Positions 10,073 through 24,503 of a DNA stretch of 64,000 nucleotides are shown piece by piece. A model generated the notes under the pieces. That model ran no database searches. It was not told the DNA's origin and saw only the letters and a program-made list of their open reading frames with translations. Each line of letters starts with the position of its first letter. Within the stretch, counting starts at the first letter, position 1. The DNA is taken from contig NZ_JAGJEC010000004.1 of assembly GCF_018100785.1 (NCBI RefSeq), forward strand, positions 1-64,000, given 5' to 3'. Made by a program: the position numbers and the translations under genes. Origin of the DNA: Maribacter sp. MMG018. Its GTDB lineage: Bacteria; Bacteroidota; Bacteroidia; Flavobacteriales; Flavobacteriaceae.

Positions 10073-10102
10073 GTTAACCCTAATAGATGTGCAGGCATTA
10101 AA
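10073..10102 (+). promoter_or_regulatory. GTTAACC-N16-CATTAAA, candidate ECF-sigma promoter of the ompA operon
   Basis: GTTAACC at 10073-10079 and CATTAAA at 10096-10102. It is one of seven matching sites in 10-22.5 kb; the spacer here is 16 instead of 15. It lies inside the longest open frame of the downstream gene, which argues that translation starts later, at ATG 10191, giving a leader of about 80 bases. Confidence 0.65.
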
Positions 10103-10190
10103 TAGTGAGATTAGATCGGGAACCAAATTATTTCCCCTTTTCTGTTTCTCTATTAAAAACACCTATGAATACACTAAAATTTATGTACCG

Positions 10191-11525
10191 ATGAAACGTA
10201 TTAAGCACTTCTTACACCTAATACTCACCTTATCCTTTGTTTTTTTATCCGCATCTGAAGTTCATGGCCAGTTTCTGAAAAAATTAGGGAAAGCGGCCGA
10301 AAAGGCCGCGGAAAGAACAGTAGAACGGCGTGTAGAGAAAGAAACCTCCGAAAAGACAGATCAGGCCTTGGACAGTATTTTTGAACCCGGAGCAAAGAGC
10401 GGTAAAAAATCCCCCATCCCTACCGGAGACAAATCGTCACAGACAGGCTCTGGCGACACCAATTCTCCACAAAGTTCCGACGTAGGAACCCCGACAGAAG
10501 CCTCATCCAAAACATTGTCGGTTTACAGTAAGTTCGATTATGTTCCTGGGGACGAACCCTTGTTCTTAGATGATTTTTCAAATGAATTTGTCGGTGATTT
10601 TCCTTCCCGATGGAACACCAACGGAAGTGGCGAACTTGTTACACTAGATGGCGAAGAAAATAAATGGCTAAAAATTCTACCGGGCTTCTCAATGGCCTAC
10701 ATTCCTGATATCAGCCCATTGCCAGATGAATTCACCTTAGAGTTTGATGTAATTGCCTTAGGACTGGACAGCAAAACTTCATCACAATCTTATTTCGGCA
10801 TTGTTATAAGTGACAACAACACTTTTAAACAATCGGCGAACATGGGTATGGTAGAATACTCTTTTTGTCAATTTATAAACCCCGGGGTAATCGTTGAAAA
10901 CAAAATAGCCTCGAAAAGGGTGATCCGAAACGACGTAAAGGCAGATATACGAAACATTGTAAAAGAGAAACACCATGTATCGATAGCTGTAAACAAAGAA
11001 CGTTTTAGATTTTGGATCAACGAGAACAAATATATTGACGTACCACGACTGTTACCGTCAAATACACAAATGCGGGGTATAAAATTTACGCTCCGCGGAA
11101 CCGACACCAACAAAGAATCTATTCTTATAAGTAATGTAAAAGTAGCCAAGGGAGGTGTGGATCTAAGAAGAAAATTATTGGCAGACGGAAAAATATCTAC
11201 CACCGGTATTCTGTTCAACAGTGGATCGGCCCAGATACAACCACAATCTATGGGTATTATCCGACAGATATACCAGGTACTTCAACAAGACAGTACTATA
11301 AATCTAAAGATCGTTGGCCATACCGATGCAGATGGCGATGACCAAAAAAACCTTGAATTATCAAAAAAAAGGGCAGATGCGGTAAAAAACGCCCTTGTAT
11401 CTATCTATAACGTCTCTCAAAGTAGATTGTCTACAGAAGGTATGGGAGAAACAAAACCTGTTGGAGACAATACTACAGCAGACGGTAAAGCATTGAACCG
11501 GCGTGTAGAATTTATTAAACTATAA
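10191..11525 (+). CDS. OmpA-family protein with N-terminal amphipathic helix
   Basis: 444 residues from ATG 10191. The frame is open from 10071, but the promoter motif overlaps that part and only the ATG gives a clean signal peptide (LTLSFVFLSASEVHG). After the signal comes a charged helix rich in Ala, Glu, Lys and Arg (KKLGKAAEKAAERTVERR), then a Ser/Thr/Pro-rich linker, a beta-rich domain resembling a concanavalin/laminin-like sandwich (about 115-325), and a C-terminal OmpA peptidoglycan-binding domain (about 335-444; GHTDADGDDQKNLELSKKRA, then NRRVEFI). The protein probably tethers to the cell wall from the periplasm or outer membrane. First gene of a three-gene operon with the TapB-like protein (11 bases on) and the subtilisin. 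Confidence 0.85.
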   Translation: MKRIKHFLHLILTLSFVFLSASEVHGQFLKKLGKAAEKAAERTVERRVEKETSEKTDQALDSIFEPGAKSGKKSPIPTGDKSSQTGSGDTNSPQSSDVGTPTEASSKTLSVYSKFDYVPGDEPLFLDDFSNEFVGDFPSRWNTNGSGELVTLDGEENKWLKILPGFSMAYIPDISPLPDEFTLEFDVIALGLDSKTSSQSYFGIVISDNNTFKQSANMGMVEYSFCQFINPGVIVENKIASKRVIRNDVKADIRNIVKEKHHVSIAVNKERFRFWINENKYIDVPRLLPSNTQMRGIKFTLRGTDTNKESILISNVKVAKGGVDLRRKLLADGKISTTGILFNSGSAQIQPQSMGIIRQIYQVLQQDSTINLKIVGHTDADGDDQKNLELSKKRADAVKNALVSIYNVSQSRLSTEGMGETKPVGDNTTADGKALNRRVEFIKL

Positions 11526-11536
11526 AAAACGAAATC

Positions 11537-12235
11537 ATGAAAACCACTTTACTAACTGTAGTATTATCTTTTATCATGGCCACCATCACTTTTGGCCAAG
11601 ACAACTGCAGTAAATTCTACCCACTCAAAGAAGGTAGTTCTTTTGAATATACCAACTACAACAAAAAAGGAAAGATAGATGGCTCTGTACATTACACCAT
11701 CTCAGAAGTACGGTCCGAAGGTAATGCCACCGTAGCTACGTTCGACATGAAATACAAGGATAAAAAGGGAAAGGACCTATTTGAATCCAACTATTCCTTT
11801 AGTTGTGAAAACGGTTTGGTCACCATCGATTATGAATCTCTTTTCCCTTCGCAAATGATGCAGCAGTATACCGACATGGGAATGGAGATGGATATCTCGG
11901 GAACCGATATTCAATTGCCCAACAACCTGAGCGTGGGCCAACAATTGGCAGATGCCAATGTTTCAATAGCCATGAGCATGGGAGGTATTAATATGAATAC
12001 CTCGGTAAACCAAACAAATCGAAAAGTAGAGAAAAAAGAAAGTATAACCACCTCTGCGGGCACCTTTGATTGTTATCTACTAACCGAGGACCAAACTACC
12101 GAGGCTATGGGCGCGAATATTGAAACATCTACAAAACTATGGTTAGCAGAGGGCATAGGCATGATAAAGCAAGAGAGCTACAAAAAGAACGGAGCCCTGA
12201 TCAGCCGAATGGAGCTTACCCAATATAGCAAGTAA
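11537..12235 (+). CDS. secreted TapB/DUF3108-like protein
   Basis: 232 residues. Signal peptide about 1-20 (MATITFGQ). The mature part starts with NCSKFYPLKEGSSFEYTNYNKKGK and contains a later TTSAGTFDCYLL and WLAEGIGMIKQESY; this pattern of a two-sheet beta domain with a 'threshold-to-cysteine' hairpin is that of the DUF3108/TapB group. The assignment is by memory of the pattern and not certain. It lies 11 bases after the OmpA gene and 31 bases before the subtilisin, so it is in one operon under the GTTAACC promoter. Role unknown; periplasmic or outer-membrane-associated. Confidence 0.65.
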   Translation: MKTTLLTVVLSFIMATITFGQDNCSKFYPLKEGSSFEYTNYNKKGKIDGSVHYTISEVRSEGNATVATFDMKYKDKKGKDLFESNYSFSCENGLVTIDYESLFPSQMMQQYTDMGMEMDISGTDIQLPNNLSVGQQLADANVSIAMSMGGINMNTSVNQTNRKVEKKESITTSAGTFDCYLLTEDQTTEAMGANIETSTKLWLAEGIGMIKQESYKKNGALISRMELTQYSK

Positions 12236-12266
12236 CCAAAACTAAAAATATTAAACAACCACTACT

Positions 12267-13637
12267 ATGAAATTAAAGACAACCCTGATTATATTGGTAT
12301 GCCTTGGCATTACCTCCTGTTCTAAATGGCATTACGGAGACCACAATGACGACGACCCAAACGACAACGAAGAAAAGTACAATGAAATAATTGTCGACGA
12401 GGGCGCCAGTAGCCAAAAAGATAAGATCGACCTTTCGCCCAACGAGGTCATCGTTACCTATGATGGTGTCGATACGACCCGAAAAACCGAAATACGTGAT
12501 AGCATAACGAGCGAATATCCCGGATTGGAAATCTTGAAATGCGATTGTGGCAGCGATGATATTGAAATGTGGAAGTTCGACCCGGCCACACCAAACGTAG
12601 AGGCGATCATCGAGGGGGTCGTGGACAGATTGCCGCGACGCAACCCTCGGGGAAGAATCGAGGGAGAACAATCGTTTATTGTCTCCTTACCGGATATGCC
12701 CCCCTTTGTCGCCCAAGGTCAAAGCGGTGGCGAACCGGCCTTTATAGCGCCTCGCGATGAAAACAGTGTGAACATTGCCATTTTGGATACCGGGATAGAT
12801 TATTTTCGGCCCGAACTTACCTCATCGGACAGAAATGTTCTTTTCCCAAGTGCCGATTTCACCGATTGTATAAGCACCCAATCGGGATGGAATTTCACCC
12901 AGGGAAATCAAGATATTTTGGACGAAAACGGCCACGGCACTTATGTCACCAAGATCATTACCGATATCCTCGATGCCGAAGAAACTCCGGTAAACTACCA
13001 AATTCTGCCCTTAAAAGTGTTCGATAGCGAAGGCAAGGGCTCATATTGGAACATACTATGTGCCCTGACCTATGTAAAATCGATAAACGAAAACGGAGGG
13101 AATATCCATGTAGTCAACGCCAGTTTTGGTGGTGCCTTGGACCGCACTTATTTCAGTTCTGACAGCAACATATTCGCCCATCTTTTAGGCGAACTAAATG
13201 ACCTTGGGGTTCTGGTGACCACATCGGCAGGCAACGAAGGCAGGGATAACGACAATGGTCCCGAAGGCCACTTTTTATCTTCCTATCGGACCAAAAACAT
13301 GTTGACCGTAGCCGGCTACAATTACATTGAGGGCGACGGAGAGGATCCAAGGTTACACGAAAAATCAAATTTCGGAAACGAAAGCGTACAAGTAGCCATG
13401 GCCTTTAATGGCTATGAAGTTATCCTAGGTTACCCTAGCGGATTGGACGACCTGATTAAGTTAGAGGGCACTTCCTATTCAACGGGAGCCATGACGGCCC
13501 TGGCAGCCATTGTACATCGCGAGACAGGATTGGTATCGGAGGGTTTAAAATCGGCGATATTGTCTTTGCCCATAGTTAGCTACTCTCCCGAACTCGACGG
13601 AAAAATTGAAGGGGGACGTGTAATTCTACGCGAATAG
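12267..13637 (+). CDS. subtilisin-like (S8) serine protease, lipoprotein
   Basis: 456 residues. Lipoprotein signal ending at Cys18 (GITSC), then a very Asp/Asn-rich stretch (DHNDDDPNDNEE) and a probable pro-region to about residue 155. The catalytic triad is complete: Asp174 (AILDTGID), His223 (NGHGTYV), Ser403 (GTSYSTGAM), with oxyanion Asn323 (SAGNEG). It should be an active endopeptidase anchored by lipid at the outer membrane, either facing outward or in the periplasm. Third gene of the ompA operon and followed by a terminator. Codons look richer in G/C at third positions than in the flanking SusC genes. Its substrate is unknown; processing of envelope proteins made by the neighbouring regulon is a reasonable guess. 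Confidence 0.93.
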   Translation: MKLKTTLIILVCLGITSCSKWHYGDHNDDDPNDNEEKYNEIIVDEGASSQKDKIDLSPNEVIVTYDGVDTTRKTEIRDSITSEYPGLEILKCDCGSDDIEMWKFDPATPNVEAIIEGVVDRLPRRNPRGRIEGEQSFIVSLPDMPPFVAQGQSGGEPAFIAPRDENSVNIAILDTGIDYFRPELTSSDRNVLFPSADFTDCISTQSGWNFTQGNQDILDENGHGTYVTKIITDILDAEETPVNYQILPLKVFDSEGKGSYWNILCALTYVKSINENGGNIHVVNASFGGALDRTYFSSDSNIFAHLLGELNDLGVLVTTSAGNEGRDNDNGPEGHFLSSYRTKNMLTVAGYNYIEGDGEDPRLHEKSNFGNESVQVAMAFNGYEVILGYPSGLDDLIKLEGTSYSTGAMTALAAIVHRETGLVSEGLKSAILSLPIVSYSPELDGKIEGGRVILRE

Positions 13638-13647
13638 TTTTGCCCAT

Positions 13648-13702
13648 AAACAGGTTTGAGAGCTCTTGGTTTCTATCAAGGGCTTTCCTGTTTTTAATTT
13701 TT
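13648..13702 (+). terminator. terminator of the ompA-tapB-subtilisin operon
   Basis: Outer stem AAACAGG (13648-13654) with CCTGTTT (13687-13693), inner stem AGCTCTTG with CAAGGGCT (one G-U pair), then a T-rich tail. It lies 11 bases past the protease stop codon. Confidence 0.7.
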
Positions 13703-13785
13703 CGGCATATTATACTCTCTTTTAGCCATTTGTATTTATATACATTGTGCAATTGTTGTACTTTGTAGCATTCATAGGTCAAAAA

Positions 13786-16608
13786 ATGTCAAAGCAACGC
13801 CCTTTCTTTTCGGTTCCCGTTTTTTGGTGCATACCTATTCTCTTTTTTCTATTTCCCATTGTTGGTGTATCGCAACACGACCAACTGCTTCAGATAATTG
13901 AAAGCGGACAGGCCAAGCAGCGTACAGAAAATAGCCTCGATCAATTTTTCAAGGACAACAAGCCCCACTTAAACGACCGGGAACTTGCCGATTGCTACCA
14001 TGATGTGGCGAGCAAATGGTATTATGAAAACTGGTGGAATACCGGCAGCGTTACCGACCTCGAAAAGGCCATTGGCTATACGGAAAGGGCCTTGAACATT
14101 AAAAAGAAGCTCGATAGCCTTCCCCCAGGTTCTTTGGAAAAAACTGCCTACAACCTCGGTGCCTTCCATCATTTGAACGGGGAAGTGTTCAAAGCCGAAA
14201 AAGCATATCTTTTTCTAGTGCAAAACGGTAAAGATGCCGCTAAGATAGAAAATGCCAAGGTTGAACTGGGCAACATCTATCTTGAGATCGGGGACTTTTA
14301 CAAGGCACTGGAACAATTTGATGAAATTATAATTTCCAACAACAGCACTAAAATAACCGAGAATCTCATCGATGCCCATATCATCAAGGCCGAAATTTTC
14401 TCCTTAATGGGCATCGCCCAGTTTTCGCAAGAGATCCGTACCAATCTGTCAAAGGCAGATTCCCTTTTGAAACATTCGGGCATCAGCGAGAGTTACTATA
14501 ATAATAGGATCAACCAAACCGAGGGCAACAGGCTGATTGAAATCGGTGACTATGAAAATGCCATAAAATTTCACAAAAAGGTATTATCGGACTCCCTCAA
14601 CCTCTACCCCAACGAACTCGCCCGGGTATATAACAGCCTTGGTTTTTCCGAAATTAAATTAAAACGATTTGAGTTGGCCGAGAAGTATCTGCAAATTTCC
14701 ATCGACCATGACCCCAACTACTCGCTGCCCTATGAAAATTTGGGAGACCTCTATAGCGCCAAGAAAGATTTTGACAAGGCAATGTACCACTACCAAAAGG
14801 CCATTTACTGGTCGATCAACAAATCGGACCCCGTTGAAGTCACAACCCTACCTTCCCTCAGTGAAATAGAAGTGGCCTCCGAAAAAATATTCTTGCTCAA
14901 CCATTTGGTCACCAAGGCAAATGGTTGGTTGCGATTTTATGAGGAAGAGCCCAAGAAGGCCTATCTTCAATATGCACTTTCCACTTTCCGTCTTTCCGAT
15001 CGCTTGATCGACCTGATCCGAAACGAAAGCACCGAAAACCAGTCCAAATACTTTTGGAGGGAGAAGGGCGCAAACCTCTATTCAAAGGCGGTAGAAGTGT
15101 GTTATTTGCTAAACCTCCCCGAAACGGCCTATTACTTTATGGAGCGGAACAAGGCCCTTTTGCTTTTGGAGGATATCAGTGCGGAACAAGCCAAGGAAAT
15201 CGCCAATTTACCCCAAGACGTATCGGAGCGGGAGTTTCTTTTAAAAAAGGACATTTTACTTCAGGAAAACCAGTACCAGAACCACACCGACCCCACCTTA
15301 AAAGATTCCCTTAAAAAAGTGGTTTACGAGACAAAACAAAGGTATTACTCCTTTATAGACTCCTTGACCGAAGCTTATCCGGAGTATGAAAAGACCAAAA
15401 AACAGATTCAAATTTTACCGTATGAATCCTTTAAGTCGAAATATGTAACGCAAGACCGTGCGGTGTTGCAATACATCCTCAATAAAGACCAAGGTTACGG
15501 TCTTTTCAACAGCAGCGAATCCACCGTATTTTTTAAGTTGGAAAACGCCCCCGAACTCAATAACGAACTCATAGAACTATATACCCAACTGACCGACTTT
15601 GGGGCCTCGCGGTCTAAACTGGAGCAGTTTAACCGCATTTCCAATAAAATTTTTTCGCAACTAATTCCTTCTACCGTTCTTAAAGAACTTCAGAACAAAA
15701 AAGTGACCATCGTCTCCGATTACCTTTTACAGCAAATACCCTTTGAGGCCTTTGTCACCAAAACAAACCCGGCCCGCTATCTCATTGAGGACACCGAAAT
15801 AACCTATGCGTATTCCGTTTCGTATTTAGATGCGAAGCAAAAGATAGGCAACACACCCCGTCGGGGCTTTTTCGGTTTGGCCCCGGTCGAATTTTCGACC
15901 TTGAACCTGCAGCAACTCCATTTTAGCCAACCGGAGGTTGAAGAGGCCGCAATCTATTTTGAAGGGGATACCTACCTCAACGACCTAGCTACCAAAAGCA
16001 ACTTTCTCGAGAACCTTCCGCTTTACAAGATCATTCATTTATCGACCCATGCGGATGTGGGCGATAACGGCAACCCCTGGATTGCCTTCAGTGATGAAAA
16101 AGTTTACCTAAACGAACTTTATGCCGCAAAAACAGAGGCCCAAATGGTAGTTTTAAGTGCCTGTAACACCTCTATTGGGGAGCTAAAAAAAGGCGAAGGT
16201 GCCATGAGTCTGGCTAGGGGCTTTTTTCATGCCGGAGCCAAAAGTGTCATTTCTTCGCTATGGTCGACCAACGATAAGAGCAGCAAGGAAATAATGGCCG
16301 GTTTTTATCAAAATCTTAGTGAAGGACTTAGCCAATCGGAAGCGCTGCGCGAAGCCAAACTGCATTACATAAACACCAACAAGGGCAGTAACTTGGGCCC
16401 GGGCTACTGGGCGGCGCTTATCGTAATCGGAGATGATGCGCCCGTAGTGCAACATACTTACAAATGGCCGCTTTACGGCGCCCTTCTATTTGTATGCCTC
16501 ACTTTCTTGGTTTACTTCTTGATAAAAAAACGTGCAAAAACTAGTTTACTCCAATTCGCCCAAAAGTTCAATCGCCTCCGGTTTTTTGTACCTACCGTCT
16601 TCCACTAG
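13786..16608 (+). CDS. TPR-CHAT protease with C-terminal membrane anchor
   Basis: 940 residues from ATG 13786; the frame opens at GTG 13747, but the ATG start gives the better signal (basic start, then a long hydrophobic run ending VGVSQ). Residues about 80-360 hold tetratricopeptide repeats (GNRLIEIGDYENAIKFHKK; YENLGDLYSAKKDFDKAMYH). The C-terminal CHAT domain (about 590-885) has the caspase-like dyad: His755 (IIHLSTHAD) and Cys793 (VVLSACNTS), plus GAKSVISSLWSTND. A membrane segment covers about 896-915, followed by a basic tail. The predicted layout is periplasmic TPR plus CHAT with a cytoplasmic tail. No GTTAACC site precedes it, so it may be made independently of the regulon. Its 3' end overlaps the convergent TPR/anti-sigma gene by 63 bases. 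Family known; substrate unknown. Confidence 0.9.
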   Translation: MSKQRPFFSVPVFWCIPILFFLFPIVGVSQHDQLLQIIESGQAKQRTENSLDQFFKDNKPHLNDRELADCYHDVASKWYYENWWNTGSVTDLEKAIGYTERALNIKKKLDSLPPGSLEKTAYNLGAFHHLNGEVFKAEKAYLFLVQNGKDAAKIENAKVELGNIYLEIGDFYKALEQFDEIIISNNSTKITENLIDAHIIKAEIFSLMGIAQFSQEIRTNLSKADSLLKHSGISESYYNNRINQTEGNRLIEIGDYENAIKFHKKVLSDSLNLYPNELARVYNSLGFSEIKLKRFELAEKYLQISIDHDPNYSLPYENLGDLYSAKKDFDKAMYHYQKAIYWSINKSDPVEVTTLPSLSEIEVASEKIFLLNHLVTKANGWLRFYEEEPKKAYLQYALSTFRLSDRLIDLIRNESTENQSKYFWREKGANLYSKAVEVCYLLNLPETAYYFMERNKALLLLEDISAEQAKEIANLPQDVSEREFLLKKDILLQENQYQNHTDPTLKDSLKKVVYETKQRYYSFIDSLTEAYPEYEKTKKQIQILPYESFKSKYVTQDRAVLQYILNKDQGYGLFNSSESTVFFKLENAPELNNELIELYTQLTDFGASRSKLEQFNRISNKIFSQLIPSTVLKELQNKKVTIVSDYLLQQIPFEAFVTKTNPARYLIEDTEITYAYSVSYLDAKQKIGNTPRRGFFGLAPVEFSTLNLQQLHFSQPEVEEAAIYFEGDTYLNDLATKSNFLENLPLYKIIHLSTHADVGDNGNPWIAFSDEKVYLNELYAAKTEAQMVVLSACNTSIGELKKGEGAMSLARGFFHAGAKSVISSLWSTNDKSSKEIMAGFYQNLSEGLSQSEALREAKLHYINTNKGSNLGPGYWAALIVIGDDAPVVQHTYKWPLYGALLFVCLTFLVYFLIKKRAKTSLLQFAQKFNRLRFFVPTVFH

Positions 16609-17283
16609 GGCTTCTAAGCTTTCCATTGCTTTTTCTTTTTCCCTTAGTTTTAAATAGGCCAAAGATCGGTACCAAAGGGCCTGTGGCAGAAATTCGCCGT
16701 TAACATCAATTACCTGGTCGAACAAGTCGATTGCCCGCTTGGGCTCGCTTATCTTTAAATACGACTGAGCAAGGTAAAAGTTGACCGTTTCCGTGTTTTG
16801 GGTTTGCTTAAGCTCCGTAAAAAGAGCAATGGCCTCAGAGGTGTTATCGGTTTCATAGGCCATAAAAGCTTTCCGTTCTTGCGAATCACCGGTATCCTCT
16901 CCTCGGGTAATGGCATAGACCGTATTCGGATACTCTTGAAAGTTATCCTCGTACAAATTGCCATAATTTGGACCAGAAAATGTATTGTACCCCAACCAAC
17001 CTAAGCCAATTACCAAAGCAACAGAAGCTGCTATGGCCCATTTACGGATGTCTAGTGTTGTTTTTTGGATAGGCCTTTCTTTTTTGATATCATCTTCAAA
17101 ATCTACCAACCGTGACTTAAGTTCACTATTTTCTTTTTCCCTTATAACCTGTTTAAGGTCATTTTCAAAATTGAACTGTTGTCGAAACTCTTTATCCGTC
17201 TCCAAAAGTTGATCCAAAAGTTTCTGCTCCTCTGGTGTAATACGGTCAGAAAAATAGTTATATAGTAATTGCTCTTTGTCCAT
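16546..17283 (-). CDS. one-pass membrane TPR protein, candidate anti-sigma factor
   Basis: 245 residues. N-terminal cytoplasmic part (1-80) is acidic/basic and helical, with ITPEEQKLLDQLLETDKEFRQ, the pattern seen at the start of Bacteroidetes anti-sigma factors. A membrane helix covers about 82-101 (WAIAASVALVIGLGWLGY). The C-terminal part (about 120-245) holds at least three TPR-like units (FMAYETDNTSEAIALFTELK; VNFYLAQSYLKISEPKRAIDLF; ALWYRSLAYLKLREKEKAMESL) and should be periplasmic. It starts 3 bases after the sigma gene, so the two are cotranscribed, the classic sigma/anti-sigma arrangement. Anti-sigma function is inferred from order and topology; no zinc-binding ZAS motif is visible. 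The 3' end overlaps the CHAT gene. Confidence 0.8.
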   Translation of the reverse strand: MDKEQLLYNYFSDRITPEEQKLLDQLLETDKEFRQQFNFENDLKQVIREKENSELKSRLVDFEDDIKKERPIQKTTLDIRKWAIAASVALVIGLGWLGYNTFSGPNYGNLYEDNFQEYPNTVYAITRGEDTGDSQERKAFMAYETDNTSEAIALFTELKQTQNTETVNFYLAQSYLKISEPKRAIDLFDQVIDVNGEFLPQALWYRSLAYLKLREKEKAMESLEALVEDGRYKKPEAIELLGELE

Positions 17284-17286
17284 AAT

Positions 17287-17856
17287 CTAGTAGGTATTTT
17301 CCTGGATGCGTTCTTTCAGTGTTTTCATACATCTGGATTTAGCGGCTTTCACCACATTTTCACTATTATAATTGCCTTTTTCCATAATCTCTTGAATGGT
17401 ATAACCACGGTAATAAAAGAGTGTCAACAATTCTTGGCATTTAGCTCCTAGACCTTTAAAGTGTTCTTTGAGCAACTTCTGCTCCCTAGTAAGATCTGCA
17501 CTTTCAAGGTCGAGCGTATTTATATGCACATCGGTTTCCCCTACTTTTGAAAGGTCATAACTTCCTGAGACCGATTTTTTGTTCTTCCTCATTCTATCAA
17601 AAATTAAATACTTACCGATAGAGAACAGATAAGTGGAAACACTGCTGGTCAGTTCTTCCAATTTTCCGTTCATTACGTTCTCATAAAAGACGATATAGGC
17701 ATCTTGGTAGATATCTATATTCTCTTCTTCGGTAAGATCATAACGCCTTGCAAAATTCAGAAACTTGGCCCGGTTATCCTCATATACCTTTTTAAGTACT
17801 TTCTCAGAACCCGATCTAAGTTCTTCTAGCGTAATGTCTTTATCTGTCTTTGCCAC
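17287..17856 (-). CDS. ECF-type RNA polymerase sigma factor
   Basis: 189 residues. Region 2 lies at about 25-95 (FARRYDLTEEENIDIYQDAYIVFYENV, then SYLFSIGKYLIFDRMRKNKK, here abbreviated), and region 4 at about 135-183 (CQELLTLFYYRGYTIQEI with a following recognition helix NYNSENVVKAAKSRCMK). There is no region 1 or 3, so it is an ECF (group IV) type. The only plausible start is GTG 17856; an in-frame stop lies 27 bases upstream and no ATG occurs before residue 60. The next gene on the strand is the membrane TPR protein. A GTTAACC-type site ends directly at the start codon, which suggests autoregulation but leaves no room for a normal leader. Proposed to read the GTTAACC-N15-CATwAAA promoters of this region. 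Confidence 0.92.
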   Translation of the reverse strand: MAKTDKDITLEELRSGSEKVLKKVYEDNRAKFLNFARRYDLTEEENIDIYQDAYIVFYENVMNGKLEELTSSVSTYLFSIGKYLIFDRMRKNKKSVSGSYDLSKVGETDVHINTLDLESADLTREQKLLKEHFKGLGAKCQELLTLFYYRGYTIQEIMEKGNYNSENVVKAAKSRCMKTLKERIQENTY

Positions 17857-17885
17857 TTTAATAATCAGGAATTGAAAAGGTTAAC
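17857..17885 (-). promoter_or_regulatory. GTTAACC-N15-TATTAAA at the sigma gene
   Basis: Minus strand: GTTAACC at 17885-17879, 15-base spacer, TATTAAA at 17863-17857. It matches the regional motif in both halves and spacing. It abuts the GTG start codon, so a standard transcription start would fall inside the reading frame; either the site binds a regulator, or the real translation start differs. Confidence 0.5.
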
Positions 17886-18022
17886 ATCATTAACGGCTAA
17901 TTTAACCTTTTTTAGACCTGATGCCCACCAATAAATCGCATAACTCCCTGTTAACGGACTTTTGTAGTATTCCTATTACAAAATTCTAAAAAAAACAGAC
18001 CTATATTTTTTTTAGAATTAAT

Positions 18023-18051
18023 GTTAACCTACCCCTTCTTGCAACATACAT
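18023..18051 (+). promoter_or_regulatory. GTTAACC-N15-CATACAT, candidate ECF-sigma promoter
   Basis: GTTAACC at 18023-18029, exactly 15 bases, then CATACAT at 18045-18051. It lies 27 bases before the small membrane-peptide gene at 18078. Confidence 0.6.
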
Positions 18052-18077
18052 TATAACACGCATAAAAAAACACACCA

Positions 18078-18173
18078 ATGGAAACCTATAAGAAATTAGA
18101 AATGATAAAAAGAATTTTGATCATAGCCCTAGCCATAACAATATGGATATATTTTTTTCTATTACTAGCATAG
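18078..18173 (+). CDS. 31-residue single-pass membrane peptide
   Basis: Too short for usual gene finders. The frame runs from ATG 18078 to TAG 18173: a charged start METYKKLEMIKR, then a continuous hydrophobic helix rich in Ile, Leu and Ala with one Trp and Tyr, ending in FFLLLA. It would be inserted with the N-terminus inside. The evidence that it is real is the GTTAACC-N15-CAT site placed 27 bases upstream and the clear design of charged start plus one membrane helix. I recognise no family. It could be a small regulator of the neighbouring membrane TPR protein or CHAT protease, which is speculation. Confidence 0.45.
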   Translation: METYKKLEMIKRILIIALAITIWIYFFLLLA

Positions 18174-18208
18174 TCTACACCCAATTATCCATTCTTTTTT
18201 GTTCGCTT

Positions 18209-18237
18209 GTTAACCTTTGCACAGGTTCTTCATAAAA
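18209..18237 (+). promoter_or_regulatory. GTTAACC-N15-CATAAAA, candidate ECF-sigma promoter
   Basis: GTTAACC at 18209-18215, exactly 15 bases, then CATAAAA at 18231-18237; the lipoprotein start codon follows at 18262, a suitable distance for a leader of about 20 bases. Confidence 0.7.
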
Positions 18238-18261
18238 GGGTGTATCTATAAAAATTACATT

Positions 18262-19359
18262 ATGAAAATTTCAAGAATTCACTCCGTGGTTTTGGCCCTA
18301 ACATCATTATTATTCATTCATTGCAGCAAAAACGATGATTCGCCCGAACCCATAGCCGAAAACACACCCACCGAAGAAACCCCCGTTGAAGAGACCCCTA
18401 TTGAGGAAACCCCACAAATTGATGGTACTTGGTCGGTTAGTTCGACTAATCTTTATGGTTACGATAATGCTAAATATTTTATAATTAACACCGACAATAC
18501 CTTAGTAATCCTCAATGAAAACGAATTGGGATTCAAAAACCTTAATAATGCCAATTATGCCAATGATGAGGAAAACAGCCAGATAACCCTAAATTATGGC
18601 TATGGATCAGCTTTGGTGAATTACACATTAACAGAGGATGAATTGGTCTTGAATTTTCCTGACGGTTCCATAAACTTGATTAAAAGCGAAACGGTAGATG
18701 ACACCGATTGGATAGAAGAACTAACTATTTTAGAGGAAGGGGACGCACCTTGGAACGAGGATGTGGATATTGCCTGGAACGGGAGCCAAATTTTGGTCGG
18801 CAACGGTTATGAAGTTGAAGACATAGGGTTGGTAAACCCCGAGACCTTTGCCCTAGAGGGCACCATTACGACCACCCGAAGTGCCTTTGCCGTAGAAGTA
18901 GAAAAATATGACAGTTCTGGCAAATATATATTTCAAAGCAGCAACGGCTATTCTAAGTTCTTTTTCTACCGAGAATCTGACAACACCTACATAGATGAGT
19001 CTATAGACCTAGGTGCTTGGATATACGGATTAGCCTCCGTTGATTATAATAAAATTTGGGCCGCCAGTGGTAACGAAAGAACTTTGTATCTATACAATTA
19101 TAATACTGTTTCCATTGAGCAAACCATTGAGCTGGGAGATACCACACCTAACGGACTAGATTACCAAGACGGTTATTTATATGTATGTGCAGACGGCATG
19201 TTGTATAAATGTGATGTTACTGACGGGCTAACTGTGGTAAATTCTTATGCCCTTCCAGATGTATCCATTGTTGGGATAGCCTATGACGGATCCAATTTTT
19301 GGATTTACGGCCACCGTGGCAATGATGGAAAATTAATAAAATTGGACCTGTCCATATAA
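18262..19359 (+). CDS. surface lipoprotein with C-terminal propeller-like domain
   Basis: 365 residues from ATG 18262 (the open frame reaches back to 18217, but the promoter motif overlaps it). Lipid cysteine at Cys21 (LLFIHC) followed by SKNDDSPE, which resembles the Lys/Asp lipoprotein export signal described in Capnocytophaga and Flavobacterium, so surface exposure is likely. Residues 33-52 form a Thr/Pro/Glu repeat (TPTEETPVEETPIEETP). A small lipocalin-like beta domain (about 53-150; DGTWSVSSTNLYGYD) precedes a propeller-like part (about 160-365; IWAASGNERTLYLYNYN, FWIYGHRGNDGKLIKLD). No family assignment. First of six tandem envelope lipoproteins. Confidence 0.8.
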   Translation: MKISRIHSVVLALTSLLFIHCSKNDDSPEPIAENTPTEETPVEETPIEETPQIDGTWSVSSTNLYGYDNAKYFIINTDNTLVILNENELGFKNLNNANYANDEENSQITLNYGYGSALVNYTLTEDELVLNFPDGSINLIKSETVDDTDWIEELTILEEGDAPWNEDVDIAWNGSQILVGNGYEVEDIGLVNPETFALEGTITTTRSAFAVEVEKYDSSGKYIFQSSNGYSKFFFYRESDNTYIDESIDLGAWIYGLASVDYNKIWAASGNERTLYLYNYNTVSIEQTIELGDTTPNGLDYQDGYLYVCADGMLYKCDVTDGLTVVNSYALPDVSIVGIAYDGSNFWIYGHRGNDGKLIKLDLSI

Positions 19360-19383
19360 TCCCTTCCTTTTAAAGTACCAACA

Positions 19384-19412
19384 TAAACACCTACACCTAT
19401 CACATCATAAAA
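19384..19412 (+). promoter_or_regulatory. weak match to the regional promoter motif
   Basis: CATAAAA at 19406-19412 is placed properly upstream of ATG 19429, but the bases 15 upstream (TAAACAC at 19384-19390) match GTTAACC poorly. Only the downstream half is convincing. Confidence 0.2.
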
Positions 19413-19428
19413 ACTAAAACAAAATATT

Positions 19429-20463
19429 ATGAAAGTTCTAAAATATATAATGGCTTACACGATATTGATCAGTATATTCTGTTCATGCGAGAAAGACCTG
19501 ATCGGCGAGATCAAAGACTATGACCAAAAAGAAAAAGACACCAAAGGTTTTCCTAAAGACGATAGTTATTTCCTTAAAATCAACGTTGAGACCCATGAAG
19601 ACCAAATGGGCAGTTTTTATGACAATAAAATCGTAGAGTTTCATGGTAAAATATGGTCCATTGGCGGGTATAATAGTTATAGTTCTCCCAATTGCAATAG
19701 CGATGTCTGGAACAGTGACAACGGTATTAATTGGCGTAGTGTAACCTCTAACCAATTTGGAGCCAGAAGAGGACACGCAACTGCCGTTTTTAATGATCGG
19801 ATATGGATGGTTGGAGGCATAAATACCGATACCCCTACATGGGTAGAATATGATGATATATGGTCCTCCTCCGATGGGGAGACATGGGTTCGACAATTGG
19901 AACATGCTCCATTCGGGCATTTGTTTTACCCCACCCTTACCGTCTTTAATGGTAGAATGTTCGTTATCGGGGTAAGTCGCTCATCTTTTTGGAAGACCGA
20001 AGTATGGTCTACCAGCAACGGTATTTCATGGAATTTGGAAACCTCCGACCCCTTTCCCCCAAGGGAAGCACACCAAACCGTTGTTTTTAACGACAAACTA
20101 TATGTAATAGGAGGACAAGGCGAAGGTATCGCCTACAACGAAATCTGGGAAAGCGACAACGGTAGAACATGGACGCGCCTTACCCTTTCCGGCGATATAT
20201 TTTCCGATAGGTATCATCATGGTGCAGTCGTATATGACGGCAAAGTATGGATCCTTGGCGGAATGGGCCTTATTACAGGACCTTATGCAGATCTATATTA
20301 TTCCGACGACATGGAAAATTGGACTCAATATACCGATTTAGGGCCTTCTCCCACTCCACTGAACAAATTTGCCACCCTTAACTATGATGGGGCCATTTGG
20401 GTCTTTGGTGGTTTTAACACACGAGAACCCGTTGGTGAAATCGTCACTTTAAGGGGCTTATAG
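19429..20463 (+). CDS. Kelch-type beta-propeller lipoprotein
   Basis: 344 residues. Lipoprotein signal ending at Cys20 (SIFCSC) followed by EKDLIGE. Five to six Kelch-like blades are visible, each with a hydrophobic strand plus G-G turn and a WxSxDGxxW element: IWSIGGYNS, IWMVGGINT, MFVIGVSRS, LYVIGGQGE, VWILGGMGL, IWVFGGFNT, interleaved with VWNSDNGINW, IWSSSDGETW, VWSTSNGISW and IWESDNGRTW. It should form a propeller for protein or glycan contact on the cell surface. Followed by a strong terminator. Neighbours on both sides are surface lipoproteins. Ligand unknown. Confidence 0.9.
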   Translation: MKVLKYIMAYTILISIFCSCEKDLIGEIKDYDQKEKDTKGFPKDDSYFLKINVETHEDQMGSFYDNKIVEFHGKIWSIGGYNSYSSPNCNSDVWNSDNGINWRSVTSNQFGARRGHATAVFNDRIWMVGGINTDTPTWVEYDDIWSSSDGETWVRQLEHAPFGHLFYPTLTVFNGRMFVIGVSRSSFWKTEVWSTSNGISWNLETSDPFPPREAHQTVVFNDKLYVIGGQGEGIAYNEIWESDNGRTWTRLTLSGDIFSDRYHHGAVVYDGKVWILGGMGLITGPYADLYYSDDMENWTQYTDLGPSPTPLNKFATLNYDGAIWVFGGFNTREPVGEIVTLRGL

Positions 20464-20468
20464 ATAAC

Positions 20469-20499
20469 AAAAAAACCTCGGTCAATACCGAGGTTTTTT
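20469..20499 (+). terminator. terminator with AACCTCGG hairpin (copy 1)
   Basis: Stem AACCTCGGT (20474-20482) and ACCGAGGTT (20487-20495), loop CAAT, with A run before and T run after. The same stem recurs at 22446 and 24526. Confidence 0.9.
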
Positions 20500-20509
20500 A
20501 TGCCCCAAT

Positions 20510-20538
20510 ATTAACCTAGATTCCTACGGTACATCAAA
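20510..20538 (+). promoter_or_regulatory. ATTAACC-N15-CATCAAA, candidate ECF-sigma promoter
   Basis: ATTAACC at 20510-20516, exactly 15 bases, then CATCAAA at 20532-20538. It follows the terminator through the string TGCCCCAAT, which also links terminator and promoter at 22475-22483. Confidence 0.6.
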
Positions 20539-20572
20539 TAAAAACACTTAATAATCTAAAAATTTCAACCCC

Positions 20573-21775
20573 ATGAAAACTTCAACGCAAAGTCTAGAAG
20601 ACTGTAAAAAAAATATATGGGCAATTATAATTACGGAAATTTCAGATATAAAATGGATCTGGACAATTGTCCTATTGTCTTTTGCGACTGCCTGTGATAA
20701 AGATCAAGTTATGGAAGACGAAAACGGATTCAGTGACGAACCTACGGAAATAAGGGCTTATACGGCTACCCAAAGTCCAGGTGACATCTGGACATTTGAT
20801 CTAGACCACACCGCTATGACCTGGACAGGCACTTGGGACCATGGTACCGAAACCGACCCGTCGGACGACCTAGCCTTCAGTGGCACATTCTCGCAACTAC
20901 CTTCGGGGTTTCTAAAATTGGTTTTGGATACCACTACCCCGGCCGATGCAGCCTACCCTTCAGGAGGTTTGGGCTTCTTCTACGCCGCGGAAATACCGGG
21001 AATGTCACTTTTTGCCCAACCTGCCGGCAGCTTGTCCGGCCCAATAATAAATGGCGTCGACCGCAGCGATTGCGGAACCTTGGCAGGCACCTACAATTAT
21101 GTAAGGATTCCGCCCCAAGGCGTATACGATGTACGCACCCAACCCGCATATGGGTCGCTCAACATTTCGGAAACAGGAGGCGGATTTACTTTCAACGGAA
21201 TTCAAAAAAGCCTTGACTGTCTTGATCCATTGGCCCCCTGTACAACGGATGGCCCCATGAGTATTCCCGGAAGTGCCACTTGTGACTCTGGCACCCTCGA
21301 AATCAACGACGGAACTACTTGGGTAGGTCTTGGGCAGACCACTCCTTCGGGCATGTTCATGATCGATTTTGGGGCAGGAAACGGAGGTATCTACGGAGGA
21401 CAGCAACAAAGCATAACCTTATCCGAAGTCGTGGGCAAAAAATTAATAGGTTTTGTCGACCAGCCCAGAACAGGAGAACAACAGGCCACCAGTATCGTAT
21501 TCGATGAAACAGGCAGGGGCCTCGGCACCCTCTATCTTGATTTGGAGACCAACGTCATTGACACTGACTCCCAACTCGAAGTACAGATCAATTCGGTGAA
21601 CAACGGACTTTTTGAAGGAGCCATAACCAATAAATCAGGTGTCATATCCTGGATTGTTGGAAGCATACGGCGCAACGGCCCACAACTGGTCATGGCAATC
21701 GTCACCTTCTCCGATGAAGGCCCCGGTGGTGTCCTTTTTCCGGCTAACTCGGCAGTGGTGGGCTATACGCCCTGA
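20573..21775 (+). CDS. secreted lipoprotein of unknown family
   Basis: 400 residues. The lipid cysteine is unusually late, Cys41 (LLSFATAC), because about 27 polar residues precede the hydrophobic stretch; no later in-frame ATG gives a shorter signal, so the long N-region may be real. After DKDQVMEDENG comes a Gly/Thr/Ser-rich, beta-rich body with several cysteines (RSDCGTLAG, KSLDCLDPLAPC, SATCDSGTLEI) and WxGTW motifs. The third-position G/C content looks higher than in the next gene. Not recognised. It belongs to the lipoprotein array and has its own motif-type promoter, so it is probably an envelope-facing product of the same regulon. Confidence 0.75.
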   Translation: MKTSTQSLEDCKKNIWAIIITEISDIKWIWTIVLLSFATACDKDQVMEDENGFSDEPTEIRAYTATQSPGDIWTFDLDHTAMTWTGTWDHGTETDPSDDLAFSGTFSQLPSGFLKLVLDTTTPADAAYPSGGLGFFYAAEIPGMSLFAQPAGSLSGPIINGVDRSDCGTLAGTYNYVRIPPQGVYDVRTQPAYGSLNISETGGGFTFNGIQKSLDCLDPLAPCTTDGPMSIPGSATCDSGTLEINDGTTWVGLGQTTPSGMFMIDFGAGNGGIYGGQQQSITLSEVVGKKLIGFVDQPRTGEQQATSIVFDETGRGLGTLYLDLETNVIDTDSQLEVQINSVNNGLFEGAITNKSGVISWIVGSIRRNGPQLVMAIVTFSDEGPGGVLFPANSAVVGYTP

Positions 21776-21805
21776 CCAACATAACCTAATTTCTTAACCT
21801 CTTGT

Positions 21806-21834
21806 GTTAACCCCAACTTCTTTAGCACATTAAT
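21806..21834 (+). promoter_or_regulatory. GTTAACC-N15-CATTAAT, candidate ECF-sigma promoter
   Basis: GTTAACC at 21806-21812, exactly 15 bases, then CATTAAT at 21828-21834, 26 bases before the collagen-like lipoprotein gene. Confidence 0.7.
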
Positions 21835-21860
21835 AGATGTAAATATTAAATAATATAATT

Positions 21861-22427
21861 ATGAAAACTAAAATCAAAAGTACACTGTTTTTACTTTTAG
21901 GTATCATTTTATTGAACACCTCTTGTACAAAAGAAGGCGACATCGGCCCTATAGGACCAGAAGGACCACAGGGAGAGCAAGGCCTTCAAGGACCTGAGGG
22001 ACCACAAGGTGATTCTGCACCCACCTCAAATTATTTTGAACGTTCCAATTTAAATACCGCATCGATAGATGCCAATACAACAGCAGCTCCTATTGGCCCT
22101 GTTTTAACCATTGAAAAGGAATTCGACGATACTAGAATAGAGGTCATACTAAATTCTAGGGTAGGTTCAGGAACCTTTTCCGGGGCTAATGGGATTAAAG
22201 TATCTACTAGAATAAATGGCGAGGTCGGTTCATTGCAAAGTCTCGCTGCAATAACTTCTAGTAATACAACAGATTTTGTATCTGTTTTTGATGTTTTTGA
22301 TGATCTACCTGCCGGAACCCATGATATACAGATATATGTAGAAACGACTCCTTCCGGCACTTCCAGTGGGGTAATACTGGATCCAGGCGGATATGGAGGA
22401 AAACTAATTGCCAAAGAAACTTATTAA
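21861..22427 (+). CDS. collagen-like lipoprotein, 9 G-X-Y triplets
   Basis: 188 residues. Lipid cysteine at Cys22 (LLNTSC) followed by TKEGD. Immediately after come nine uninterrupted Gly-X-Y triplets (GDIGPIGPEGPQ, then GEQGLQGPEGPQGDS), enough to start a short triple helix, followed by a beta-rich globular C-terminal domain (about 55-188; TTAAPIGPVLTIEKEF, GTHDIQIYVETTPSG). The layout, lipid anchor plus collagen stalk plus globular head, suggests a trimeric surface stalk. A related gene lies at 23847. Head function unknown. Confidence 0.85.
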   Translation: MKTKIKSTLFLLLGIILLNTSCTKEGDIGPIGPEGPQGEQGLQGPEGPQGDSAPTSNYFERSNLNTASIDANTTAAPIGPVLTIEKEFDDTRIEVILNSRVGSGTFSGANGIKVSTRINGEVGSLQSLAAITSSNTTDFVSVFDVFDDLPAGTHDIQIYVETTPSGTSSGVILDPGGYGGKLIAKETY

Positions 22428-22442
22428 AATACTCAAATAGAC

Positions 22443-22473
22443 AAAAACCTCGGCCGACCCCGAGGTTTTTTTA
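22443..22473 (+). terminator. terminator with AACCTCGG hairpin (copy 2)
   Basis: Stem AACCTCGG (22446-22453) and CCGAGGTT (22460-22467), loop CCGACC, then a T run. Confidence 0.9.
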
Positions 22474-22482
22474 TGCCCCAAT

Positions 22483-22511
22483 GTTAACCTTCACACAGCC
22501 CCTGCATAAAA
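22483..22511 (+). promoter_or_regulatory. GTTAACC-N15-CATAAAA, candidate ECF-sigma promoter
   Basis: GTTAACC at 22483-22489, exactly 15 bases, then CATAAAA at 22505-22511, 22 bases before ATG 22534. It is preceded by TGCCCCAAT as in the copy at 20501-20509. Confidence 0.7.
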
Positions 22512-22533: not shown

Positions 22534-23739
22534 ATGAAAATCTTTAAATCCATCTTGGGAATATTTCTATTGCTCAGCGTCTTTACAAATTGTAAAAAAA
22601 ACGATGACACCGATTTTGTAGAAACAGAAGAAATTACAGAAGAAACAAAAGACCCTGTGAACGATATCGCAGGAAGCATTTGGATCCGTAGCGACAATCT
22701 TTATACCGAATTGGATTTAAATGACAATCAACAGATTGACTCCTTTACCACCACGGCTCCTTTTTACTGTAATGAATCTAACGGTGTTTTTATCTGTACA
22801 CAAGGGGAATATTCAGGAACAAAAACACTACTTCGCAAAGGCACTATTAATGGAGAAGCCCTTTGGTCTAAAGACTATGTTGAAGACGGTGACAAGTATT
22901 TTCTAATTGGCGCCACTACAGTGTTCCAAAACACAGTTTTGGCTGGCTATAGAACAATCGATACGACCACCTATAGTTCCATCCAATACCTAGAAGCACT
23001 GAATCTTGAAACAGGCGACGTTCTTTGGACTATTGAACTTAACAATGAGGTGAAAAAGATTATTCCGTACCAAGACAAAATAATTGTAGAATTGAGCCAA
23101 GGTTCAAGCACCCAGGAAATTTTGAGTATAGATCCCGATAATGGGAATATTGACAAAAGAATACCCTTTTCCGATAGGATATCAAAATTAGTAGCTGCTT
23201 CCTCTTCGATAATAGCCATGACCTGGAGTAACAGTGTTGTTTCCTTGGATGCCGATTTGAACGAGAATTGGACGTTCAGCACAGGAAGCCCCAATATTTT
23301 GGGAGGTTACGAAAGTGGAGACCAATTTATTTTTTACTCCCGTGACGAGCACGTTTACAGCATTGACAAAAATAACGGAACGCTTATTTGGGAACACGCC
23401 TATACCGGAAAATTCCCTTCGGCCATAGATATATCGAACGATATGGTGTTCATTAGTTATAATGAATTGGGCTCGACCATTGTAACCAAGACTCTTGATA
23501 TTTTAAGTGGGGAAGAACTGTATTCCTTTACCTACCCCGTCAATGAAGAATGGGATTCCGATTCAACAACATACTATTTCTTCGACAACCATCTATTGCT
23601 CTTTAACACTGTATCAAGTGACAACAAAGCCCATATTGTTTTGATAAATATTTCTACCGAAACATTGGTCTGGGAACAAGAACTAAATCAAAAAGCCTAT
23701 CCAAGTTTAATAATTACCCCAACAGGCTACTATCAATAA
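22534..23739 (+). CDS. PQQ-like beta-propeller lipoprotein
   Basis: 401 residues. Lipid cysteine at Cys20 (VFTNC) followed by KKNDDTD, a good surface-export type signal. After an acidic Glu/Thr linker (about 28-45) the protein has PQQ/YVTN-like blades: ALNLETGDVLWTIEL, LDADLNENWTFSTGS, SIDKNNGTLIWEHAY, and NISTETLVWEQELN, each with the 'GxxxW' outer strand. This is a 6- to 8-bladed propeller for binding rather than catalysis; the residues that bind the quinone cofactor in dehydrogenases are not evident. It shares the lipoprotein-plus-propeller plan with 18262 and the Kelch gene. Confidence 0.85.
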   Translation: MKIFKSILGIFLLLSVFTNCKKNDDTDFVETEEITEETKDPVNDIAGSIWIRSDNLYTELDLNDNQQIDSFTTTAPFYCNESNGVFICTQGEYSGTKTLLRKGTINGEALWSKDYVEDGDKYFLIGATTVFQNTVLAGYRTIDTTTYSSIQYLEALNLETGDVLWTIELNNEVKKIIPYQDKIIVELSQGSSTQEILSIDPDNGNIDKRIPFSDRISKLVAASSSIIAMTWSNSVVSLDADLNENWTFSTGSPNILGGYESGDQFIFYSRDEHVYSIDKNNGTLIWEHAYTGKFPSAIDISNDMVFISYNELGSTIVTKTLDILSGEELYSFTYPVNEEWDSDSTTYYFFDNHLLLFNTVSSDNKAHIVLINISTETLVWEQELNQKAYPSLIITPTGYYQ

Positions 23740-23790: not shown

Positions 23791-23819
23791 ACTACCCTCT
23801 TGGCCCGAATAACATAAAA
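23791..23819 (+). promoter_or_regulatory. partial match to the regional promoter motif
   Basis: CATAAAA at 23813-23819 is preceded at the right 15-base distance by ACTACCC (23791-23797), which matches GTTAACC at 4 of 7 positions. It is well placed for the collagen-like gene at 23847; a degraded member of the set, or chance. Confidence 0.3.
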
Positions 23820-23846: not shown

Positions 23847-24503
23847 ATGAAAACTACATTACGCTTTTTATCCTGCATTTTAATGAGTATCGGCCTATTG
23901 ACCACTTCCTGTTCAAAGGACGGGGACGTCGGCCCCATAGGACCACAAGGGGAACAAGGTATTCAAGGGGAGCAAGGACCCGAAGGCCCCCAAGGACCGG
24001 CCGGTGAAGACGGACAAGACGGAGTTGATGGAGAGGATGGGGAAGATGGAGAAGATGGAGAAGACGGCAATGCAGAAGTGTACTACAGTGAATGGATACC
24101 TGCCAATTTTACCGGAGACTCAGAAACTAGTAAGTATATGAGAATCGATTTTCCCTCCCCGATGGAATCCGCTTTTTCTATTAAAAACACCCATATCGTT
24201 TTAGTCTACTTCACCGGTTTTGGCGATGGCAATGTTTATCAACTACCTGTTCTCAATTTTAGAGGTGCCCAATTCACTTTTGGTTACGGTTCTGGATCTT
24301 CACTTTCAGGAGATATTAACATACATGCAAAATCAACAAGTACCAGTGCCTTAAGCGAATACGCTATAAGTCCAGAAAGGGGCAACAGATTTCGTTATCT
24401 TATCATTCCTCCGAACATACTCATCTCTTCAAAAGGAAACAAACCCAATTTTTATGACATGACCTACGAAGAAGTTATACAGTATTTTGGTATGGAATAT
24501 TAA
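23847..24503 (+). CDS. collagen-like lipoprotein, 17 G-X-Y triplets
   Basis: 218 residues. Lipid cysteine at Cys23 (LLTTSC) followed by SKDGD. About 17 consecutive Gly-X-Y triplets follow (GDVGPIGPQGEQ onward), the last seven or so being acidic GED/GQD/GVD units encoded by a near-perfect 9-base-type repeat around 24020-24065. A beta-rich globular domain then covers about 80-218 (YSEWIPANFTGD; LPVLNFRGAQFTFGYG). Same plan as the gene at 21861 but with a stalk twice as long, so the two are likely paralogues with diverged heads. The triplet tract is a candidate for length variation between strains. Confidence 0.87.
   Translation: MKTTLRFLSCILMSIGLLTTSCSKDGDVGPIGPQGEQGIQGEQGPEGPQGPAGEDGQDGVDGEDGEDGEDGEDGNAEVYYSEWIPANFTGDSETSKYMRIDFPSPMESAFSIKNTHIVLVYFTGFGDGNVYQLPVLNFRGAQFTFGYGSGSSLSGDINIHAKSTSTSALSEYAISPERGNRFRYLIIPPNILISSKGNKPNFYDMTYEEVIQYFGMEY

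Follow-up and report, generated by a model that had tools for sequence, protein, structure and literature searches.

A two-block ECF-type promoter motif accompanies a sigma factor gene, a lipoprotein gene array and a conserved micropeptide gene in Maribacter sp. MMG018

Introduction

Systems composed of an extracytoplasmic function (ECF) sigma factor and a membrane anti-sigma factor, such as SigW of Bacillus subtilis and sigma-E of Escherichia coli, combine the sigma factor with an adjacent membrane protein, a -35 element with an AAC core, a short fixed spacer, and envelope targets. A similar combination is found in the stretch of DNA analyzed here, the first 64,000 nucleotides of contig NZ_JAGJEC010000004.1 of Maribacter sp. 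MMG018 (hereafter the window), where copies of a two-block motif, GTTAACC-N15/16-CATWAA, lie around an ECF sigma factor gene. The -10 element is CATWAA here and CGTA or CGTC in SigW and sigma-E promoters. In addition, the putative anti-sigma factor carries a TPR domain, and the presumed targets are mostly a local array of variable lipoprotein genes.

Three further systems are close to this locus. In SigH-RshA of Corynebacterium glutamicum, the sigma gene is served by housekeeping promoters, and within it lies a SigH-dependent promoter from which only the anti-sigma gene is transcribed (PMC3489674). The logic proposed below from promoter geometry is similar, with the difference that the candidate promoter here spans the sigma start codon, beside a presumed housekeeping promoter. 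The CASP system consists of the TPR-CHAT protease Csx29, the inhibitor Csx30 and CASP-sigma (PMC10028731). In both cases, a TPR-CHAT protein is encoded with an ECF sigma factor and a putative inhibitor, and motif matches lie inside the locus. The CHAT protein of the window differs in having a C-terminal hydrophobic stretch and looks exported, and its putative partner is a subtilisin or a lipoprotein of about 205 residues. No CRISPR protein was found among ten window proteins in a general scan, which was not a search aimed at CRISPR. The SM6 ECF promoters of Flavobacterium psychrophilum (PMC9723704) are also flavobacterial and ECF-type, with an ECF/anti-sigma pair among their genes, but the SM6 -10 element has a CGT box instead of CATWAA, and genes of the type IX secretion system are among the targets. 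A different motif was suggested for SigP of Porphyromonas gingivalis (PMC4800418). No paper on this locus was found in an open-literature search.

Very probably, the sites described here are promoters recognized by the ECF sigma factor whose gene lies at 17287-17856. This factor would direct RNA polymerase to GTTAACC(TT) as the -35 element and, after a spacer of 15-16 bases, to CATWAA as the -10 element. The targets switched on would be an OmpA/DUF3108/subtilisin operon, the gene of a 31-residue peptide, and an array of variable content that encodes mostly lipoproteins (collagen-like proteins, Kelch and PQQ propellers), many with their own promoter. The adjoining TPR protein would probably act as the anti-sigma factor, the sigma factor would probably be released by a signal passing through the TPR-CHAT protein and its cognate partner, and the copy at the sigma gene would be a feedback site. 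For an ECF sigma family of Flavobacteriaceae, this would define a concrete promoter code and tie it to a variable lipoprotein array, to a conserved micropeptide in a size range often missing from gene lists, and to a CHAT protein that varies together with its partner.

Promoter sites in the window and the genome

The sigma factor gene (17287..17856, minus strand) encodes 189 amino acids. The protein passes the TIGR02937 cut-off (53.4 bits against 42.9) and stays below the Pfam cut-offs of Sigma70_r2 (23.8 against 24) and Sigma70_r4 (12.8 against 24.1). The protein shows the profile of an ECF sigma factor (group 4), and a two-block promoter with an AAC-core -35 element is linked to its gene.

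Seven sites of the form GTTAACC-N15/16-CATWAAA were proposed in a sequence-only reading of the window, and all seven are present, with the positions, strands and spacers given there (15 bases, and 16 at 10073). As candidate ECF-type promoters, they are GTTAACC-N16-CATTAAA at 10073..10102, ahead of the OmpA-DUF3108-subtilisin genes; GTTAACC-N15-TATTAAA at 17857..17885 (minus strand), abutting the GTG start codon of the sigma gene at 17856; GTTAACC-N15-CATACAT at 18023..18051, ahead of the micropeptide gene and with identical boxes in the Maribacter thermophilus locus (L061); GTTAACC-N15-CATAAAA at 18209..18237, ahead of the 18262 lipoprotein gene; ATTAACC-N15-CATCAAA at 20510..20538, ahead of the 20573 lipoprotein gene; GTTAACC-N15-CATTAAT at 21806..21834, ahead of the 21861 collagen-like gene; and GTTAACC-N15-CATAAAA at 22483..22511, ahead of the 22534 propeller gene. 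All except the second are on the plus strand, and these six precede plausible starts, as had been claimed. The minus-strand site, which had been left without a gene, is the sigma gene's own. The proposed -35 half is exact in six of the seven sites, that at 20510 being ATTAACC. The proposed -10 half fared less well and is exact in just three (10073, 18209 and 22483). One further site had been overlooked. At 23791..23819 (plus strand), ACTACCC-N15-CATAAAA stands ahead of the 23847 gene as a decayed eighth copy, with CATAAAA intact at 23813 and the -35 half at 23791 lost; the M. thermophilus relative of this gene keeps GTTAACC there, that is, a full site.

In the window, exact GTTAACC-N14-17-CATWAAA was observed three times, versus 0.02 expected from shuffles. 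The genome scan that the earlier reading had called for found four exact matches to GTTAACC-N15/16-CATWAA in the 4.13-Mb genome (17 contigs), all within window positions 10073-22511, and the exact full motif is confined to this 12-kb region. With up to two mismatches, there was no genome-wide excess (127 matches, and 210 for the reversed control pattern). Because the exact matches are confined to the locus and the two-mismatch matches show no excess, the site set is considered local. Outside the locus, eight genome matches have one mismatch, and none is followed, 12-44 bases downstream, by an ATG-started frame of 100 codons or longer. A loose pattern gave nine matches in this genome, five of them in the locus and one more at L141, described below. 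With no exact match elsewhere in its genome, the sigma/promoter pair is a possible orthogonal part for expression in marine flavobacteria. A sigma-70 consensus scan gave 39 matches versus 32 in shuffles; this consensus says little for this phylum.

Motif architecture and co-occurrence with the sigma gene

Genome contigs were scanned with the sigma protein, which gave 18 named loci in Maribacter, Zobellia, Pseudozobellia, Euzebyella, Kriegella, Pelagihabitans and others. These loci and the window contain 138 GTTAACC words, picked by the -35 half alone, and CATWAA lies at +15 (68) or +16 (23) of 91 of them. At any other offset from 0 to 37, CATWAA occurs at most four times. Taken together, the sites show a T-rich tract, then GTTAACCTT, roughly 13 unconstrained bases, CATWAAa, and after it a tendency to GG and AAA. 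A chance origin of the sites was ruled out by the shuffles, the genome scan, and the spacing histogram.

Six gene-paired sites were compared between the window and M. thermophilus. Their boxes are identical at 84/84 bases and their spacers at 68/92 bases, a comparison that leans toward the boxes in that the M. thermophilus sites were found by the motif. In a seventh pair (23791 and 5351 of L061), three box bases differ. The full set comprises 116 sites (17 sigma-gene, 27 operon-side, 70 array-side, and two on an unexpected strand); at least two of them, L062 324 and L075 13965, seem to fall within coding frames. The counts exclude L089, a duplicate of L062. Among the 92 non-sigma sites with a downstream ATG-started open reading frame (ORF) of at least 100 codons, the ATG lies 18-35 bases past the -10 block in 64. 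The remaining distances are 36-90 bases in 15 (14 before OmpA), more than 90 in nine, and fewer than 18 in four, each of which has a later in-frame ATG.

The motif also follows the sigma gene from genome to genome. Co-occurrence was counted in the genome of the window and 36 relatives (35 of the same genus and one of the same family), a count that omits 23 genomes of the same order with two matches among them in all. The 11 sigma-bearing genomes have 3-7 motif matches each (mean 4.8), and the 26 sigma-less genomes 0-3 (mean 0.8), versus 2.9 and 3.5 per genome for the reversed control pattern. OmpA relatives of 50% identity or more are preceded by a site in 17/20 sigma-bearing loci and in 0/6 sigma-less loci. 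The slot flanked by the pre7495 gene and lipB was scanned, for GTTAAC plus C or T only, in 19 genomes of the genus that have no sigma gene, and none has a recognized site in it. Sigma-less G020 (L138) has other genes in the slot, one of them a weak relative of an array family, and no site.

The sigma module lies elsewhere in G001, G004, G011, G016 and G017, all of the genus, and in these five genomes the collagen-like genes in the slot keep their upstream sites (slot loci L091-L094 and L132, paired with sigma loci L083, L085, L081, L080 and L084). In G016, a single site stands ahead of two collagen-like slot genes. A displaced sigma module with sites retained in the slot indicates action in trans and argues against mere hitch-hiking. 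The earlier proposal that the sigma factor encoded at 17287 reads these sites gains support from the exclusivity of the exact matches, the spacing peak, the co-occurrence of sigma gene and motif, the 0/6 sigma-less ompA sites, and the displaced modules, from which we infer the reading step.

Promoter across the sigma start codon

In the window, TATTAAA at the sigma gene is directly followed by the GTG start codon. Other sigma orthologues read CATTAAATG, in which the ATG overlaps the -10 block. Among 20 homologues with at least 50% identity, GTTAAC lies 28 (ATG) or 29 (GTG) bases ahead of the start codon in 18, and in those 18 the -10 block abuts or overlaps the start codon. The register is missing in G275:C15 (GTTTAC, 27 bases) and in G234. 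A search for the ATG-register pattern in 249 genomes of the family gave 21 matches, 12 of them exactly at start codons of sigma homologues, and its reversed control gave about 38 matches overall. Since the control matched more often than the pattern, the signal is where the register matches fall and not how many there are. One non-sigma site with an ATG overlapping the -10 block was met (L086 11126), and a further in-frame ATG follows 14 bases on.

Upstream of the start codon, TAAATTAG at 17897..17904 (minus strand) resembles the Bacteroidota primary-sigma element TAnnTTTG and is the probable main promoter of the sigma gene. TAnnTTnG occurs at that index in 16/17 sigma-gene sites and in 0/99 other sites; L072 and L076, whose block reads CAATTAA/AATTAAA, are not among the 17. 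In six further genomes, TAnnTT lies within about 25 bases upstream in five, as a raw count. The primary-sigma element spans -12 to -5 in F. psychrophilum (PMC9723704).

Polymerase bound at the sigma-gene site would also cover the TAnnTT promoter. ECF promoters such as those of sigma-E and SigW have the AAC core about 30-32 bases upstream of the transcription start. By this ruler, transcription from the sigma-gene site would start within the sigma ORF, 4-7 bases from its beginning, and the RNA, having no sigma start codon, could be of use only to the anti-sigma gene downstream. The copy across the start codon would then be a feedback promoter with negative feedback. We tentatively propose, at slightly below even chances, that the sigma-dependent transcript starts inside the sigma gene and cannot encode the sigma factor, and that active sigma factor would shut its own housekeeping promoter and yield anti-sigma mRNA. 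It would be a self-limiting switch, kept by the overlap of promoter and start codon across the sigma family, that at the same time fires an exchangeable surface-lipoprotein array and a conserved membrane micropeptide.

The site could alternatively act in positive autoregulation, through a leaderless sigma mRNA that starts at the ATG or GTG itself, which we consider rather unlikely. A leaderless start would need a fixed distance to the start codon, as seen in the 28 or 29 bases from the G of GTTAAC in 18/20 homologues, and leaderless mRNAs are known in flavobacteria (5.5% in F. psychrophilum; PMC9723704). Against it, the G31/A33/A34 tendency of the other sites persists when counted from the promoter, even though the ATG and GTG types are one base apart in reading frame. 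Furthermore, a leaderless start would fall just 2-3 bases past the CATW core and 23-26 bases past the AAC core, versus about 30-32 for ECF promoters. One 5' end would tell positive from negative autoregulation.

Weighing of the promoter assignment

GTTAAC is its own reverse complement, and the motif might be read as the palindromic operator of a transcription factor, with the genes using the primary sigma factor. This is very improbable, as the second block is fixed at 15-16 bases, the two-block unit has a preferred distance to the start codon, and the motif tracks the ECF gene. That the repeats arose only through cassette duplication and do not regulate anything fits the duplicated terminator and flank shared by the sites at 20510 and 22483, and has next to no probability, since sites also occur before unrelated genes (sigma, OmpA, micropeptide, partner lipoprotein), at other loci, and with differing spacers.

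Several observations weigh against or qualify the assignment of the sites to the sigma factor as promoters. The -10 blocks at 17885, 18023, 20510 and 21806 are variants (TATTAAA, CATACAT, CATCAAA and CATTAAT). The earlier statement that the window holds no other full copy stands at up to one mismatch with a spacer of 15-16 bases and fails at two mismatches, where four extra copies appear (32652, 39358 and 47260 on the minus strand, and 58285 on the plus strand). Because such copies occur elsewhere in the window, the sites at 18023 and 20510 rest on context and conservation, not on sequence alone. The seven sites are also not fully independent, because those at 20510 and 22483 share the duplicated terminator-plus-promoter stretch. 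Loci L070, L071 and L086 have the sigma gene and no recognized site before OmpA, the OmpA ORF of L071 being a fragment. The anti-sigma candidate matches no curated anti-sigma family; only curated matches of the TPR type pass. Finally, the sequences compared are related by descent, so the counts are not independent, and test values overstate their independence.

Anti-sigma candidate, CHAT protein and partner

The gene at 16546..17283 (minus strand) adjoins the sigma gene, and its product is a probable anti-sigma factor, so named from position and layout. In the predicted model, the 245 residues form four N-terminal helices, a helix at 79-102 on a hydrophobic stretch that is likely in the membrane, and TPR repeats. 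The helical N-terminal domain with one predicted membrane helix is the layout of a membrane anti-sigma factor. The model is of moderate quality (pLDDT 78, pTM 0.48) and weak around the membrane helix. Sequence matches fall on the TPR part, and the Foldseek matches shown were TPR proteins only, with no anti-sigma fold among them.

The operon-side genes, all on the plus strand, encode an OmpA-domain protein (10191..11525; listed as an ORF from 10071, with the ATG at 10191 downstream of the promoter), a DUF3108-like protein (11537..12235), and a subtilisin-family lipoprotein (12267..13637). The TPR-CHAT protein follows at 13747..16608 (plus strand), with a C-terminal hydrophobic stretch and the His and Cys motifs IHLSTHA and LSACNT; TPR-CHAT with a His-Cys pair is also the pattern of CASP. 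The Cys pattern is unmatched in the CHAT proteins of L080, L081, L083, L084 and L085, and the His pattern in that of L090.

CHAT type and partner type, set by best match to references from two loci, agree in 26/26 loci (window 12267-16608, L061-L078 and L080-L086). Type A CHAT occurs with the subtilisin lipoprotein in nine loci and type B CHAT with the lipoprotein of about 205 residues in 17; L079, L088, L090, L097 and L098, with no recognized partner, lie outside the 26, and L087, at a contig end, has no CHAT. Both states are found inside Zobellia, Euzebyella and Pseudozobellia, and with this covariation CHAT and partner appear to be exchanged together and the sigma gene to stay. That the sigma factor may be released by proteolysis, as in Csx29/Csx30, is a guess by analogy. 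PADLOC gave a weak BovA match for the CHAT protein and a subtilase match, which were not taken as evidence of defense. No relative of the sigma factor was found in viral contigs.

For the partner of about 205 residues in L077 (14203-14817, minus strand), no Pfam family reached its cut-off. In the predicted model (pLDDT 82), the N-terminal half is helical and is followed by a C-terminal beta domain whose best Foldseek matches are to CopC (E 2e-5). Paralogous modules of ECF sigma factor and CHAT are present at L079, L088, L090, L097 and L098, with sigma factors 28-43% identical. Four of the five also have an anti-sigma TPR gene, and none has a recognized partner gene. In L090, GTTAACC lies 28 bases ahead of a TTG start.

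Array genes and micropeptide

The array (plus strand) begins with a lipoprotein gene of no Pfam family (18262..19359) and a Kelch-propeller lipoprotein gene without its own site (19429..20463), which is probably cotranscribed with it. A second lipoprotein gene of no Pfam family (20573..21775), a collagen-like lipoprotein gene (21861..22427), a PQQ-type propeller lipoprotein gene (22534..23739), and a second collagen-like lipoprotein gene (23847..24503) follow. Gene types and numbers in the array differ between loci. The protein encoded behind the site was scored as a lipoprotein for 51 of the 70 array-side sites, by a rule that missed some evident ones, for example the 18262 protein of the window. 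C-x-K-[DE] is present in 41/51 scored array lipoproteins, many with just one acidic residue there. This is close to the lipoprotein export signal (LES) for the cell surface, which reads C-X-K-(D/E)2 after the lipid cysteine (PMC5080379).

The 31-residue peptide (18078..18173, plus strand) is encoded by a conserved gene with its own site, a conservation that the earlier reading had overlooked. Profile matches were found in 12 of the 18 named loci and in the window, with a site upstream every time; the profile was built from nine of the sequences it then finds. The peptides have an M[DEN]TYEKLE-like start, and the charged N-terminus followed by a single hydrophobic stretch suggests a membrane micropeptide.

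An intrinsic-terminator-like hairpin lies between cassettes at 20470..20499 (plus strand), with more copies at 22443 and 24522. These CCTCGG..CCGAGG hairpins (20471, 22443 and 24522) come after array genes, and two stand directly ahead of a promoter copy. Elsewhere in the same genome, the regulon may have a distant member in a gene for an EGF-like cysteine-rich protein, with a degenerate ATTAACC-N15-CATGAA ahead of it (L141, C1:71822-71849).

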